Part shown: positions 52,682 through 62,455 of the stretch, piece after piece | Position numbering within the stretch: position 1 is the first letter of the stretch | Layout of the letters: the number at the start of each line of letters is the position of its first letter | Assembly: GCA_017469935.1 (NCBI GenBank) | Contig: JAFUFL010000044.1 | Span: forward strand, 1-64,000 | Direction of reading: 5' to 3' | Origin: Lachnospiraceae bacterium | GTDB lineage: Bacteria; Bacillota; Clostridia; Lachnospirales; Lachnospiraceae | Length of the DNA: 64,000 nucleotides | The notes under the pieces: model-generated | The model's database searches: none | The model's input: the letters and a program-made list of their open reading frames with translations, nothing else | What the model was told of the DNA's origin: nothing | Translations under genes and position numbers: made by a program

Positions 52682-53614
52682 TCACTCACTGAACAGCGCC
52701 GTAGAATAATACCTGTCCCCGCTGTCCGGCAGCAGTGCAACGATCACTTTTCCTTCGTTCTCCGGCCGCTTGGCAAGCTCTATTGCCCCGTAGAGCGCCG
52801 CTCCGGAAGAGATTCCCACGGAGATTCCCTCCTTGCGGGCGAGAAGCTTGGCTGCCGCAAAGGCCGCCTCGTTGGGGGCTTTGATGACCTCATCGTAAAT
52901 CTTCGTATTCAGGACATCCGGCACAAATCCCGCGCCGATTCCCTGGATCTTATGAGCTCCGCTCTTCCCTTCGGAGAGCACCGGTGATCCCTCCGGCTCA
53001 AGCGCCACCACTTTGATCGCCGGATTCTTCTCCTTGAGATACTCCCCGGTTCCCGTCACTGTCCCGCCGGTTCCTACTCCGGCGATGAAAATATCGACAT
53101 TTCCGTCCGTGTCATTCCAGATCTCAGGGCCCGTTGTCGCCTTATGGATGGCAGGGTTAGCAGGATTCACAAACTGCCCCGGGATAAAGCTTCCCGGAAT
53201 CTCCGCCGCCAGCTCATCCGCCTTGGCGATCGCGCCCTTCATTCCCTTTGAGCCTTCCGTCAGGACTATTTCCGCCCCGTAAGCCTTGAGGATATTTCTT
53301 CTCTCTACGCTCATGGTCTCCGGCATTGTCAGGATGATCCTGTATCCCTTAGAGGCCGCAATAGAAGCAAGTCCGATTCCCGTATTTCCGGAAGTGGGCT
53401 CGATAATGACCGATCCTTCCTTAAGAAGTCCCTTCGCTTCCGCATCCTCGATCATGGCCTTGGCAATGCGGTCCTTCACACTTCCTGCGGGGTTAAAATA
53501 TTCCAGCTTTGCCAGGATCGTCGCTTTCAGCCCCAGCTCCTTTTCGATATTGACCACTTCCACGAGCGGTGTGTTTCCGATCAGGCCAAGAGTTCCTTTG
53601 TAGATATTAGACAT
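52682..53614 (-). CDS. cysK: Cysteine synthase A (O-acetylserine sulfhydrylase)
   Basis: 310 residues from ATG 53614 (AAGGAGGATAAAA upstream; the longer frame to 53746 overlaps metY). PLP enzyme making cysteine from O-acetylserine and sulfide. Motifs: IGNTPLVEV, NPAGSVKDRIAKAMI with the PLP lysine, IEPTSGNTGIGLA, GTGGTVTGTGEYL and GISSGAALYGA. It lies 85 bp downstream of metY and is probably expressed from the metY promoter and leader. Confidence 0.96.
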   Translation of the reverse strand: MSNIYKGTLGLIGNTPLVEVVNIEKELGLKATILAKLEYFNPAGSVKDRIAKAMIEDAEAKGLLKEGSVIIEPTSGNTGIGLASIAASKGYRIILTMPETMSVERRNILKAYGAEIVLTEGSKGMKGAIAKADELAAEIPGSFIPGQFVNPANPAIHKATTGPEIWNDTDGNVDIFIAGVGTGGTVTGTGEYLKEKNPAIKVVALEPEGSPVLSEGKSGAHKIQGIGAGFVPDVLNTKIYDEVIKAPNEAAFAAAKLLARKEGISVGISSGAALYGAIELAKRPENEGKVIVALLPDSGDRYYSTALFSE

Positions 53615-53699: not shown

Positions 53700-54983
53700 T
53701 TATCCGATCGCCGCAAATCCGTTCTCCAGATCCGCGATGATATCATCTATATGTTCCGTTCCGATGGAGAGACGGATCGTATTCTGCTTAATTCCCTGGT
53801 CGAGCAGTTCCTCTTCCGAGAGCTGGGAATGGGTTGTCGACGCCGGGTGAATGACAAGGCTCTTGACATCCGCCACGTTTGCCAAAAGAGAGAATATCTT
53901 CAGGTTGTCGATAAACTTCCAGGCTTCTTCCTTTCCTCCTTTGATCTCAAAGGTGAAGATGGATGCGCCGCCGTTCGGGAAATATCTCTCATAGAGCGCG
54001 TGATCGGGGTGATCCGGGAGAGAAGGATGGTTTACCTTCTCGACCTGCGGATGGTTCCTGAGGAATTCCACGACCTTCGCGGTGTTCTCCGCGTGCCTGT
54101 CCAGTCTCAGGGACAGAGTCTCAACGCCCTGCAGCAGCAGGAATGCGTTGAAAGGAGAAATCGTTGCACCGGTATCCCGGAGCAGAATGGCTCTTATATA
54201 AGTCACAAAAGCAGCCGGTCCTACCGCATCATAGAAAGAGATTCCGTGATAGCTGGGGTTGGGATCCGCGATATTGGGATATTTCCCGCTGGCTTTCCAG
54301 TTGAATTTTCCGGATTCCACGATTATGCCCCCGAGTGTTGTCCCGTGACCGCCGATGAACTTGGTCGCGGAGTGGACAACGATGTCGGCGCCGTGCTCGA
54401 TCGGCCGGATCAGGTAAGGAGTGCCGAACGTGTTGTCGACCACCACCGGAAGTCCGTATTTGTGCGCGATCTCGGAGATCGCGTCGATGTCCGGGATATC
54501 GCTGTTGGGATTGCCCAGTGTCTCAATGTAGATGGCTCTCGTATTCTCTTTAATGGCCGCTTCGACTTCCGAGAGATTGTGAGCATCCACAAAAGTAGTC
54601 TCGATCCCATACTGCGGAAGTGTATGTTCCAAAAGATTGAAGCTCCCTCCGTAGATTGTCTTCTGCGCCACAATATGTCCGCCGTTTGCAGCCAGCGCCT
54701 CAATGGTATAGGTAATCGCTGCCGCTCCGGAAGCCAGGGCCAGGGCTGCACTTCCGCCCTCCAGGGCCGCCAGTCTCTTTTCCAGTACGTCCTGGGTCGA
54801 ATTCGTGAGCCTTCCGTAAATATTGCCGGGGTCGGCGAGCCCGAATCTGTCAGCCGCGTGCTGACTGTTGTGGAAGACGTAAGAAGTAGTCTGGTAGATC
54901 GGCACCGCGCGGGAATCCGTGGCCGGATCCGCCTGCTCCTGTCCGACGTGTAACTGCAGTGTCTCAAATCTATAGTTTGCCAT
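53700..54983 (-). CDS. metY: O-acetylhomoserine sulfhydrylase / aminocarboxypropyltransferase
   Basis: 427 residues from ATG 54983 (AAAGGAG upstream). PLP fold-type I enzyme that makes homocysteine from O-acetylhomoserine and sulfide. Motifs: TLQLHVGQEQADPATDSRA, PIYQTTSYVF, GGSFNLLEHTLPQYG, VVDNTFGTPYLIRP and VVHSATKFIGGHG with the PLP lysine, then HPASTTHSQLSEEE. It is the first gene of metY-cysK. Upstream lies a 400-nt leader with a consensus promoter, a Met/Cys-containing leader peptide and a terminator/antiterminator pair, pointing to attenuation by sulfur amino acids. Confidence 0.95.
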   Translation of the reverse strand: MANYRFETLQLHVGQEQADPATDSRAVPIYQTTSYVFHNSQHAADRFGLADPGNIYGRLTNSTQDVLEKRLAALEGGSAALALASGAAAITYTIEALAANGGHIVAQKTIYGGSFNLLEHTLPQYGIETTFVDAHNLSEVEAAIKENTRAIYIETLGNPNSDIPDIDAISEIAHKYGLPVVVDNTFGTPYLIRPIEHGADIVVHSATKFIGGHGTTLGGIIVESGKFNWKASGKYPNIADPNPSYHGISFYDAVGPAAFVTYIRAILLRDTGATISPFNAFLLLQGVETLSLRLDRHAENTAKVVEFLRNHPQVEKVNHPSLPDHPDHALYERYFPNGGASIFTFEIKGGKEEAWKFIDNLKIFSLLANVADVKSLVIHPASTTHSQLSEEELLDQGIKQNTIRLSIGTEHIDDIIADLENGFAAIG

Positions 54984-55060: not shown

Positions 55061-55104
55061 GGGTAAAAGAAGTGCCCGGGAGTTTCAAAGCGGACTCCCG
55101 GGCA
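55061..55104 (-). terminator. Leader terminator (attenuator) of metY
   Basis: On the minus strand TGCCCGGGAGT (55104-55094) pairs with ACTCCCGGGCA (55083-55073) around 10 nt and is followed by CTTCTTTTA. The 5' arm can instead pair with CTCCCGGGCA at 55213-55204, inside the leader ORF, which would break the terminator. Confidence 0.7.
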
Positions 55105-55173
55105 AATGGCTTTCTTAATACTTATCTCAAAGCTTTGCAGCAATCAACATCGTATCGGATCAAGGCGTACGCA

Positions 55174-55269
55174 TTAAAAGGAAACCGCCTCAGCCATATT
55201 ACATGCCCGGGAGACTCGCATTCGACACCACATCCCCATGTTCTGATACTGTTTGTTTCTGCTCTTCAT
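55174..55269 (-). CDS. metY-cysK leader peptide (31 aa, containing Met and Cys codons)
   Basis: ATG 55269 follows an AGAGGTG ribosome binding site. The 31-residue peptide contains QNMGMWCRMRVSRACNM: four internal Met and two Cys in 15 residues, the two amino acids whose synthesis depends on the genes downstream. Codons 19-22 (GTC TCC CGG GCA) are the antiterminator arm. If the ribosome pauses on the Met/Cys codons, this arm is free to pair with the terminator's 5' arm; if it runs on, the terminator forms. This is the logic of classical amino-acid attenuators; the application here is inference from sequence. Confidence 0.65.
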   Translation of the reverse strand: MKSRNKQYQNMGMWCRMRVSRACNMAEAVSF

Positions 55270-55386
55270 TTTCTGCACCTCTGACCTCGCCTTTGCCTGC
55301 GGTCTTATTTGTTGTAAAACCTGCGGCCGGGTCTGTTTTCCTGTACTTCTTTCGTATGGGAAGCACTTTCTGCTTGATTTATTGGC

Positions 55387-55415
55387 ATTATATTTCTATT
55401 CGCCTACTATGTCAA
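55387..55415 (-). promoter_or_regulatory. metY promoter, full consensus
   Basis: Minus-strand TTGACA (55415-55410), 17 bp, TATAAT (55392-55387). A perfect sigma-A promoter suggests control lies after initiation. The leader is about 400 nt. Confidence 0.88.
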
Positions 55416-55472
55416 TAGGTTATTAGTAAAAAATAGTTTTTTGCTCCATCCTTTCCGCACGCGTGTGCATCA

Positions 55473-55565
55473 TTTAACTCAGTGGGGGATTGTCTCCCGC
55501 CACTGAGTAAGATTTGCTTCAAACTCACCGCCTGTAGAGGCGAGAGACTTCCCACCTGAGTTAAA
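55473..55565. repeat. Nested inverted-repeat element
   Basis: TTTAACTCAG (55473-55482) pairs with CTGAGTTAAA (55556-55565). Alternatively ACTCAGTGG (55477-55485) pairs with CCACTGAGT (55500-55508). A second small hairpin CGCCT-GTAG-AGGCG lies at 55529-55542. The right end covers the stop codon of the zinc-ribbon gene. The shape recalls the ends of IS200/IS605-type elements, but no transposase is present; it may simply be a terminator region. Confidence 0.5.
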
Positions 55566-57453
55566 AATCCTGCCACTCATATTCCGCAGGATTCACTTTT
55601 CTGAATTCTGCATTGAACTCGTCCTCGGTGAGTCTCCCTTCTCCGTTATAATAAGGCTCATCCGGATAATTCTCGAAATCCGCCTCATACAAATCAGTTT
55701 TGATCAGTCTGTTTCCGGCCTCATTAAGCGCATGCACTGCGTACTCTCCGTAAAAAGCGCCGCCGGAGCTGTATCGGATCACGCTTCCGTCTTCACACGC
55801 CCAGCAGACAGTTCTGTAAAAGCAATCGGTGATCAGCGGGATCAGCCTGCCTTCTTTCTGTGTATAGAGCGAATAGAAATTACCGAGTTCTCTTGTATAT
55901 TCATCACCTATGAGAAGCTCTTTGGTTCCGTCATTGTTGATGTCGTAGAGGCAGTAACAGAGCTGCGTCGGATTGGTTGCCCACTCCTGGATCAAATTGA
56001 GATTGACCATCGGATATTCCTTATGGAGATAGTACATCTGATCAGCGTCGAAAACGCTCATCACTGCCCTGTACTGATCAAGTATATCCTCGTAAGTGTT
56101 CCGGGAAAATGCTCTTTCACGCTCTTCCCTTCCCGAAGGAGGTATATTCTGCTCGCCCGCTTTATACTCCGAACGGTTTTCAATCTCCGAGTACATCCGG
56201 GAGGTCTGTACATAGTCATACGTATTCTCTTCGCTGGCAGTAATAAGTGAGTATCCTCCCCTTACCAGGTCTGTTTTCCAGTATTCGGCGCCTTCCGTGA
56301 GCTGATTCCTGGGCGCACTCAGCTCCACGCCGATCTGTTTCCAACACACTGTATCGCATTCATAGCGATTCTCATAATCGTATATGAGGTAGTCCTCTGC
56401 AAATGTCTCCCCTCCGTTATTATACCTTTGGACCGATGTATCCTGTGCACAGTAGACAGTCTTGTAGTTCTCCTCGTCCGTATAAGTGTTCACAAGAAAT
56501 TCCATTTCCGCAGAACCCAACCCGAGTTCTCCCAGTTCATAGGCCTTTCTGAAAGTGCCCCCATCCAGCGTGTACAATACCCAGTAGCCGGTCTCTCCGT
56601 TAGCAAACACGCCGCCTCTGAATTCAAATTGAAAGAGGTACTCTTTTCCTTCCAGACTGATAATTCCGAACTGTTCCAGAGAAGCATTGCTCCCTGAGAG
56701 TCCATCCGGGAGTCTGATCGAATCAACTTTCTCTACCTCTTTCGCCGCGTTGAACCTGTAAATATCCGTAATGAGATTGACAAGTTTCCAAGAGGAGTTA
56801 TTGTAAACGTCCGTCTCTGTCACGATTCGATAAATGACCATCTCTTTATTGCCGTCGCTGTCCAGGTCCGCCAGGTCCATACCGACCACTCCTTCGCGCA
56901 GACACCAGTTCTGAGCCTCCGTATAGTAAGTATCGGATGTCAATACAGCTTCTAACCGTGATTCATCGACTGCGCCGTAGGCGGAAACCTCCTCGGCAAA
57001 ATATTCTTTAAAGGCCGCGATTGCCTCTTCCTCCTGGGATGTCTCATCTTTTGGCACGTTCCCGGCATCCGGCCCCGCTCCTCCTCCCCGGTCCGCAGGA
57101 GTGTCTTGATCTGTCTCTTTTTTCGGCGTATCGGCAACCGGCACCGTTTCCTGTTTATTCTCTTTGAGAATAGCGGCCCCGACCAAAATAACCCCGGCAA
57201 AAAGCACGGCGATCAAAGACACAAGCGCTATGGTTACGATTCTGGTCTTATTTGTCCCGCCGTCATTAAAGCCGTCATAATCGTTCGGCATATTCTGCCT
57301 GTTCGGCGGCATCTGCCGGTTTGGTCCGCCGCCGGGTGTCATTTTCCTGTATCCGCCGGGCGCCGATCCGTTTACGAAAAGCTCTTTCCCGCAGTTCTCG
57401 CAAAATTTTGAGTCATCGGTATTTTTATGTCCGCATTCTGTACAGAATTTCAT
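55561..57453 (-). CDS. Zinc-ribbon membrane-anchored protein with FG-GAP-like calcium loops
   Basis: 630 residues: zinc ribbon MKFCTECGHKNTDDSKFCEN-C, a Pro/Gly/Asn-rich linker, one membrane helix (about 72-93), then a large extracellular-looking part. Two DxDxDG-like loops occur, DLADLDSDGNKEMVIY (about 195-210) and YDINNDGTKELLIGDE (about 525-540), as in FG-GAP/VCBS and dockerin-like folds. No enzyme motif is seen. The start overlaps the end of the DNA polymerase IV gene by four bases (ATGA), so translation is coupled to it. Confidence 0.78.
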   Translation of the reverse strand: MKFCTECGHKNTDDSKFCENCGKELFVNGSAPGGYRKMTPGGGPNRQMPPNRQNMPNDYDGFNDGGTNKTRIVTIALVSLIAVLFAGVILVGAAILKENKQETVPVADTPKKETDQDTPADRGGGAGPDAGNVPKDETSQEEEAIAAFKEYFAEEVSAYGAVDESRLEAVLTSDTYYTEAQNWCLREGVVGMDLADLDSDGNKEMVIYRIVTETDVYNNSSWKLVNLITDIYRFNAAKEVEKVDSIRLPDGLSGSNASLEQFGIISLEGKEYLFQFEFRGGVFANGETGYWVLYTLDGGTFRKAYELGELGLGSAEMEFLVNTYTDEENYKTVYCAQDTSVQRYNNGGETFAEDYLIYDYENRYECDTVCWKQIGVELSAPRNQLTEGAEYWKTDLVRGGYSLITASEENTYDYVQTSRMYSEIENRSEYKAGEQNIPPSGREERERAFSRNTYEDILDQYRAVMSVFDADQMYYLHKEYPMVNLNLIQEWATNPTQLCYCLYDINNDGTKELLIGDEYTRELGNFYSLYTQKEGRLIPLITDCFYRTVCWACEDGSVIRYSSGGAFYGEYAVHALNEAGNRLIKTDLYEADFENYPDEPYYNGEGRLTEDEFNAEFRKVNPAEYEWQDF

Positions 57454-62059: not shown

Positions 62060-62455
62060 ATGATTTCAACACGCGGACGATATGCGATCCGGGTTATGCT
62101 GGATCTTGCTGAACACGATAACGGAAACTATATTCCGCTGAAAGATATTGCGGCCAGACAGGGTATATCCAAAAAGTATCTGGAAATCATCGTGAAAGAT
62201 ATGGTCCAAGGAGGTCTGCTCGTCGGAGCCAGCGGAAAAGGCGGCGGATATAAACTGGTTCGCAAACCGGAAGACTATGCGGTCGGCGAAATTATAGAAT
62301 TGATGGAAGGGTCCCTCGCTACCGTTGCCTGCCTGGCAGAAGGCGCTGCTCCCTGCCCGCGGTCTTCTTCCTGTGAGACCCTTCCTCTTTGGACGGAATA
62401 CGATAAATTGACGCATGACTTTTTTTACGGCAAACGTCTCAGCGACCTGTTATGA
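62060..62455 (+). CDS. Rrf2-family transcriptional regulator
   Basis: 131 residues. Winged helix opening MISTRGRYAIRVMLDLAEH and LKDIAARQGISKKYLEIIV, a wing GASGKGGGYKLVRKPEDY, and a C-terminal cysteine cluster ACLAEGAAPCPRSSSCET (C-x7-C-x5-C) like that of IscR/NsrR-type [Fe-S] sensors. It probably responds to Fe-S or redox status, or to cysteine as CymR does. Its target may be its own promoter or the convergent membrane ferredoxin genes. AAAGGAGG precedes the ATG. Confidence 0.92.
   Translation: MISTRGRYAIRVMLDLAEHDNGNYIPLKDIAARQGISKKYLEIIVKDMVQGGLLVGASGKGGGYKLVRKPEDYAVGEIIELMEGSLATVACLAEGAAPCPRSSSCETLPLWTEYDKLTHDFFYGKRLSDLL

Follow-up and report, generated by a model that had tools for sequence, protein, structure and literature searches.

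The window, the whole 64,000-nucleotide stretch of DNA analysed here, carries on its minus strand the gene metY, followed by cysK. The sequence-only reading had named both genes, and the assignments agree with NCBIfam models that score above their cut-offs. It had also placed a perfect promoter and a leader of about 400 nt before metY, and the distance from the predicted promoter to the metY ATG at 54983 is indeed about 400 nt. The elements of the locus, in the order in which they are transcribed, are as follows.

55403..55419, minus strand: operator-like site CCTATTGACATAGTAGG, 17 bp, overlapping the -35 box, exact here
55387..55415, minus strand: promoter TTGACA-17-TATAAT, 12 of 12 consensus matches
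55174..55269, minus strand: leader ORF of 31 codons, MKSRNKQYQNMGMWCRMRVSRACNMAEAVSF, from reading of the sequence
55219..55239, minus strand: Met/Cys codon cluster M-G-M-W-C-R-M with CGA ATG, supported by Met/Cys enrichment by position
55225..55227, minus strand: codon 0, TGT, within the Met/Cys cluster
55204..55213, minus strand: 5′ arm of the predicted antiterminator helix P1, CTCCCGGGCA, inside the ORF, covarying with the 3′ arm
55193..55197, minus strand: 5′ strand of the predicted antiterminator inner helix P2, ATGGC, supported by ATGAC:GTCAT compensations
55186..55191, minus strand: 5′ strand of hairpin P3, supported by covariation of P3 and overlapping the 3′ side of a proposed protector, H1
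55162..55167, minus strand: 3′ strand of hairpin P3, CGCCTT, from alignment and covariation
55106..55110, minus strand: 3′ strand of P2, GCCAT, partner of ATGGC
55095..55104, minus strand: arm TGCCCGGGAG, at once the 3′ arm of P1 and the 5′ arm of the terminator, pairing in both folds
55064..55104, minus strand: intrinsic terminator with T-rich tail, -21 kcal/mol
53700..54983, minus strand: metY, O-acetylhomoserine sulfhydrylase (TIGR01326, 634.7 bits, above cut-off)
52682..53614, minus strand: cysK, cysteine synthase A, with a presumed start at MSNIYK (TIGR01139, 444.3 bits, above cut-off)

As claimed from the letters, the 31-codon ORF holds four internal Met codons (11, 13, 17, and 25) and two Cys codons (15 and 23), and it contains an arm, CTCCCGGGCA, that can pair with the 5′ arm of the terminator, TGCCCGGGAG. 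The terminator itself is an 11-bp helix of TGCCCGGGAG with a second CTCCCGGGCA, followed by CTTCTTTT. Three features of this leader had escaped the sequence-only reading, namely the location of the -35 box inside a conserved 17-bp site, the Trp at codon 14, and the CGA that follows Cys-15. An Rfam scan of the window leader confirms the absence of an S-box or T-box noted before, since neither these nor any other family scores above cut-off, and at E ≤10 it returns three chance-level matches only, with no T-box (RF00230). A nested inverted repeat seen by eye, TTTAACTCAGTGG ... CCACTGAGT ... CACCTGAGTTAAA, lies at about 55474-55567, in the gap that separates the metY promoter from the end of the gene upstream.

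The leader had been described as a single element; the leader itself stands, and it is actually one member of a multi-operon family. The module is present three times in its own genome, the window copy included. Searching that genome with the leader DNA gives one other place (L002/L003), 0.2 kb before a sulfate-binding protein gene (NF008022, 389 bits, cut-off 288), where the ORF reads ...TMMCCRMLHSQACNMAG..., and the third copy (L110), before the gene of a family-3 amino-acid-binding protein, was found by the covariance model R1. A codon-level pattern hits exactly the window and L002 places in the own genome, and adds two more genomes when applied to 397 family genomes, own included, with 0 control hits in both searches. 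A degenerate pattern run over about 85,000 species genomes returns 70 stretches, 67 of which are real by manual reading; L051, L052, and L074 lack a 3′ arm and are chance hits, about one being expected by estimate. L013 and L014 were dropped as the same records as L008 and L009.

R1 was built from 58 copies, themselves pattern hits, and was run over 49 carrier genomes and then over the 397 family genomes. It finds the module in 39 of the 397 family genomes and 37 of the 334 genera, as well as in five of 398 genomes of a phylum sample, the own genome being included each time. The sole other genome of the same genus that was searched has no copy by pattern or by R1. The family run produced 52 R1 matches, of which 40 were fetched, six were already in hand, and the five weakest were left out; one further match inside the fetched L157 stretch is uncounted. 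One model hit, L128, proved false and was dropped. The 59 pattern-missed copies read here (19 from the carrier-genome run and 40 from the family run) lean towards variation at the fixed positions of the pattern, and R1 leans them towards its consensus. The recurrence of the module across its own and other genomes is thus far above chance. The carriers are mostly rumen and gut Clostridia by their record titles, and since at least two of them (Butyrivibrio AE3009 and strain LC2019) are not labelled as MAGs, an assembly artefact is unlikely. One full copy, L063, comes from a record titled Slackia (Coriobacteriia), which may reflect horizontal transfer or mis-binning.

Within the family, the codons ahead of the arm are the most telling part of the ORF. 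Counting from codon 0, Cys and Met occur in the 59 pattern-missed copies 49 and 4 times at codon 0, 47 and 9 times at codon -1, 16 and 35 times at codon -2, and 5 and 29 times at codon -3, so that Cys or Met is found in 53, 56, 51, and 34 copies, respectively; the background further upstream in the same copies is 17 of 465 codons. Neither the pattern nor R1 includes codons -2 and -3. The claim that the leader would sense Met and Cys therefore keeps its codon cluster and is refined in its emphasis, as Cys is the main codon and Met lies mostly at -2 and -3. Of the starts chosen for 128 copies, 125 are ATG and three GTG, and 119 are 12-16 codons upstream of codon 0; these figures are not independent evidence, because the selection gave preference to ATG, to an SD match, and, where candidates tied, to a distance of 13 codons. 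Likewise, the SD-like sequence that precedes the chosen start in nearly all listed loci was partly a basis for picking that start.

The codon after codon 0 is CGA in all 68 pattern copies, where the third base was free in the pattern, and in 55 of the 59 pattern-missed copies; the rare copies L159, L160, and L164 replace it with CGC, TGC, or CTT. Among the mechanically listed ORFs of at least 300 codons in the window, CGA is the rarest Arg codon (64 of 951). The next codon, +2, is ATG in 57 of the 59 pattern-missed copies. Neither NCBIfam, searched with five leader peptides, nor Pfam, searched with four, gives a match even at E 10, searches in which HMMER filters may hide weak, short matches.

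The predicted antiterminator covaries. Its outer helix P1 is recovered by RNAalifold, and its covariation is invisible in the pattern-selected set, in which most of the bases concerned were fixed by the pattern itself; the test therefore used copies found by R1. In the 59 pattern-missed copies, 548 of 590 cells of P1 are paired, as compared with a maximum of 531 in 2000 whole-arm shuffles, and an exchange of G-C for A-U is seen at pair 6 (nine times) and at pair 8 (seven times). For the inner helix P2, the partner is GTCAT in five of seven copies with ATGAC but in only seven of 60 with ATGGC (p=0.0014). Hairpin P3 is variable in sequence yet covaries. Alignment A3 contained 58 of 69 copies, A4 82 of the 88 copies collected by then, and A5 100 sources out of 128 copies; L077 was dropped where the 3′ arm was needed, as the locus ends before that arm. 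In the pattern-selected A3, the covariation score is above shuffles (0/500 reach it), and the count of pairs with double changes is not (102/500). In A5, which leans towards R1 and retains three antisense matches (L008, L032, and L141) and the second copy in L157, 15 of 20 pairs have double changes, and the double-changed cells number 139 vs 28.7 when shuffled (0/500 reach it) and 23-53 when slid. A T-rich stretch follows the terminator in 119 of 127 copies.

These pairings bear on whether it is the peptide or the RNA that selection has kept. The family could also be explained by arrest of the nascent peptide in the manner of TnaC, with the sequence CRMxxSRACxMA stalling the ribosome upon a sulfur metabolite and the position of the stall setting the fold. 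The peptide does look highly conserved in the pattern-selected set, and Met follows Arg in nearly all copies, as the ATG at codon +2 attests. In the pattern-missed copies, however, the Cys of RAC is replaced by six other residues (His, Trp, Leu, Gln, Gly, or Tyr), and over and after the arm the peptide tracks the RNA pairing, in that changes from Arg to Gln and from Ala to Thr accompany compensating changes in the pairs. The wobble base of CGA is kept as well, which a constraint on the peptide would not need. Moreover, in six of the 47 scored copies (the rule found no strand in 12 others) the P2 strand does not keep to the frame of the ORF, and thus the RNA, not the peptide, is kept past the Cys codons. 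Peptide arrest is accordingly considered improbable, and attenuation by a ribosome that reads Met and Cys codons is the preferred reading.

A further helix, H1, is proposed as a protector. It would consist of CGAAUGC:GCGUUCG with an inner CCCGG:CUGGG and is seen in many minimum-energy folds, with at least four such pairs in 55 of 87 copies and none in 31. In H1, 77.6% of cells are paired as compared with 34-41% when slid, and its covariation score shows no excess (210/500). H1 is kept as no more than a possibility because consensus folding of the 5′ part of the leader gave no pairs, hence no H1 consensus fold. Another pairing noticed by eye, CGAATG:CATTTG beside the 3′ arm, was rejected, as the partner varies without compensation.

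Folding was carried out on 126 of 127 copies, L009 being left out for its run of N. With a ribosome block at codon 0 and the terminator not yet made, P1 is dominant in 126 of 126 copies, and with the block on the arm, the terminator is dominant in 115. Without a ribosome and before the terminator is made, P1 is still favoured (124/126). At equilibrium of the whole leader, P1 dominates in 101 copies and the terminator in 20 if a ribosome is stalled, and in 91 and 31, respectively, if the leader is empty, while a ribosome at the stop codon yields the terminator in only 46 of 126. For the window leader, P1 comes to 0.61 stalled vs 0.998 free at whole length, and to 0.68 stalled vs 0.63 free with a shorter 3′ end. 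These results speak against a plain copy of the trp attenuator. Since P1 is favoured without a ribosome and the effect of the stall on the whole leader is small, termination under rich conditions may, by these folding models, need ribosomes that move onto and across the arm, or else a kinetic effect.

That P1 is favoured without a ribosome is what would be expected of an RNA in which CGAAUG and P1-P3 form a riboswitch-like receptor for a metabolite or a protein, the ORF being incidental. The near-invariant CGAAUG, the long conserved core, and the placing of the cassette before many sulfur genes, as with riboswitches, also speak for such a receptor. An incidental ORF nevertheless leaves the in-frame enrichment of Met and Cys at -3 and -2, outside both pattern and model, without a role, and a plausible start is found 12-16 codons upstream in most copies, subject to the bias in start choice given above. 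The few copies in which CGA is replaced also argue against a receptor built on this motif. The receptor is judged unlikely, to about the same degree as peptide arrest, and translation of the ORF is retained as the proposed sensing step.

The genes that follow the copies are mostly metY or genes for the uptake of amino acids and sulfur compounds. In a survey of 87 loci, some of which end before any gene, a metY homologue comes first in 55 (window not counted; 53 at ≥60% identity), and cysK lies within 3.5 kb downstream in 29 of these. The other loci examined include genes for a sulfate-binding protein, an NlpA/MetQ-type lipoprotein, a MetN-type ATPase with a NIL domain, a sulfonate-like (NMT1-type) binding protein, a ThiF protein, a GST-domain protein, a family-3 amino-acid-binding protein, an amino-acid-type permease, and PepT-like peptidases with cysK further on. 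Models for cystine transport match the amino-acid transporters below cut-off only, and cystine is for this reason a presumed substrate.

A metY homologue follows 23 of the 40 family copies (19 at ≥60% identity and four at 35-41%), and cysK comes first in one. The remaining 16 include nine (L142, L147, L149, L150, L154, L158, L163, L164, and L166) with a downstream gene for a fused protein, in which a family-3 amino-acid-binding domain is joined to an NlpA/MetQ-type domain. A family-3 binding protein follows in three more, and a GST-domain protein, a putative cyclase, and a gene without any match in one copy each. The make-up of the fused lipoprotein suggests that it may serve both cystine-type and methionine-type uptake, which would fit a combined Cys and Met signal. 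L155 precedes a gene for (2S)-3-sulfopropanediol dehydratase (NF048011, 1397.7 bits, cut-off 1000), a sulfonate-degrading glycyl radical enzyme. The downstream genes of L113, L144, L152, and L167 are not tied to sulfur in this analysis, the one after L113 having no match. L122 and L123, whose P1 arms deviate from the consensus, are followed by PepT-like peptidase genes and, about 2.6-2.8 kb downstream, by cysK, a context hinting at a possible salvage of cysteine from peptides. The proposed regulon would take in operons with metY, cysK, sulfate, sulfonate-type, methionine-type, and amino-acid uptake, sulfopropanediol dehydratase, and peptidase genes.

The check that the sequence-only reading had suggested, namely whether the ORF and the alternative pairing are conserved in relatives, speaks for conservation: Met and Cys codons before the arm, covariation of the antiterminator, and sulfur genes downstream all recur. 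By comparison of sequences, the leader is one of a real, conserved family of sulfur-gene leaders. It is very probably a ribosome-mediated transcription attenuator of these genes, and the best reading is that it would answer mainly to Cys, also to Met, and form a regulon. The ORF, the Met/Cys cluster, the covariation of P1 and P2, the terminator, and the sulfur genes are established by sequence comparison; the position of the stall, the direction of the response, Cys as the main signal, and the roles of CGA and H1 are what we infer.

In the proposed mechanism, RNA polymerase would transcribe the leader and a ribosome would start to translate the ORF. A shortage of charged Cys-tRNA (and probably of Met-tRNA) would stall this ribosome at the Met/Cys codons. 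In the usual ribosome footprint, an A site on the last Cys codon puts the leading edge about 12 nt downstream. The last Met/Cys codon starts 14 nt ahead of CTCCCGGGCA, so the edge of the stalled ribosome should stop just short of the arm. The free CTCCCGGGCA could then pair with TGCCCGGGAG to form P1, together with AUGGC:GCCAU as P2, and the resulting antiterminator would allow the genes to be expressed. If Cys and Met are plentiful, ribosomes would enter the arm, leaving TGCCCGGGAG to pair with the downstream arm as the terminator. A more far-reaching proposal is that the leaders represent a widespread class of ribosome-sensing RNA with a regulon like those of T-boxes and riboswitches, which integrates two amino acids and in which CGA would serve as a timing pause and as the 5′ strand of a protector hairpin; this is offered tentatively and is, on balance, somewhat doubtful.

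Attenuation by a leader peptide is a known mechanism of the trp and his operons. Polycysteine uORFs of mycobacteria, leaderless according to the title of a 2020 study by Canestrari, reportedly confer cysteine-responsive attenuation of operons; they share Cys codons in a uORF with the present leader, which, in contrast to what that title states, has an SD-like sequence before its ORF and Met as well as Cys codons. Actinobacterial cys leaders are described, in the portion of the paper available, without conserved terminator hairpins (PMC1262725), whereas the present leader has an intrinsic terminator; as far as these partial sources go, the covarying antiterminator counts as a further difference from the mycobacterial and actinobacterial cases. 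Closer in design is uORFC-8-2, upstream of cysS in Rhodobacterales, for which ribosome-mediated attenuation has been proposed and which, in the excerpted account, likewise combines tandem conserved Cys codons in a uORF with RNA stems and a terminator (PMC8632094). It belongs to another phylum and, by that account, is found only before cysS, and the excerpt mentions no such arm sequence or sulfur regulon (PMC8632094); the two are set apart by description, not by a covariance model.

The bacillar hisS and hisZ genes have a histidine leader peptide, and, from the available extract, a leader peptide rich in the amino acid under control and mutually exclusive hairpins are common to these attenuators and the present one (PMC2965389). 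Classical leader-peptide attenuators are tied to one pathway, whereas in the present family a single conserved cassette stands before many sulfur operons, and codons for two amino acids occur together. For Clostridium perfringens, Cys T-box and S-box control of sulfur genes is described, which, as far as the extract covers it, shares with that proposed for the present leaders its physiological role and the control of cysteine, cystine, and methionine genes by premature termination (PMC2940859); the present leaders differ in having no T-box or S-box match and in sensing, as proposed, through a translated ORF. The open-access literature yielded these related cases and no description of the present element, which may be described elsewhere. 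What appears undescribed in the literature searched is the family, with its regulon-like spread and its combination of Cys and Met; the type of mechanism is known. The family would add a further conserved sulfur route in Lachnospiraceae and, by record titles, in other gut and rumen Clostridia. It would also predict which sulfur genes answer to the supply of cysteine and methionine, help to name transporters by their regulon, and provide a case of a leader-peptide attenuator that is maintained and redeployed in front of many operons, much as riboswitches are, and in which RNA pairing prevails over peptide sequence.

The attenuator may be joined by a second, protein-based layer of control, to which the operator-like site at the -35 box points. 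CCTATTGACATAGTAGG occurs within 4 mismatches in 107 of the 126 copies with at least 200 nt upstream, as compared with one of 126 for the reversed pattern, and a 17-nt promoter spacing is the best fit in 96 of these 107. The window also contains a gene for an Rrf2-family regulator (62060-62455, plus strand; PF02082, 104.6 bits), and a second Rrf2 gene is present elsewhere in the own genome. CymR and IscR are the models for linking CCTATTGACATAGTAGG to an Rrf2 protein, and that such a protein targets the site is a guess by analogy; no clostridial Rrf2 site for comparison was found in the open-access literature. The frequency of the site and the nearby Rrf2 gene would also suit regulation by a CymR-like repressor at the promoter only, the leader structure being a passive relic. 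This is highly improbable, as 19 of the 126 copies, L002 among them, have the leader without the site within 250 nt, and covariation of the antiterminator requires selection on the RNA. The favoured arrangement remains attenuation in the leader, with the promoter site as a possible added control.

A known type of sulfur riboregulator is present in the same genome. The T-box (RF00230) and the SAM riboswitch (RF00162) have no match at gathering score in 17 related loci, and the own genome holds five sub-threshold T-box matches and one SAM riboswitch above cut-off (L170, contig 110), so the new element would work beside known systems. The gene behind the SAM riboswitch reads, by eye, as metK, so that the sulfur genes of this genome seem to be shared out between SAM sensing and the new attenuator.
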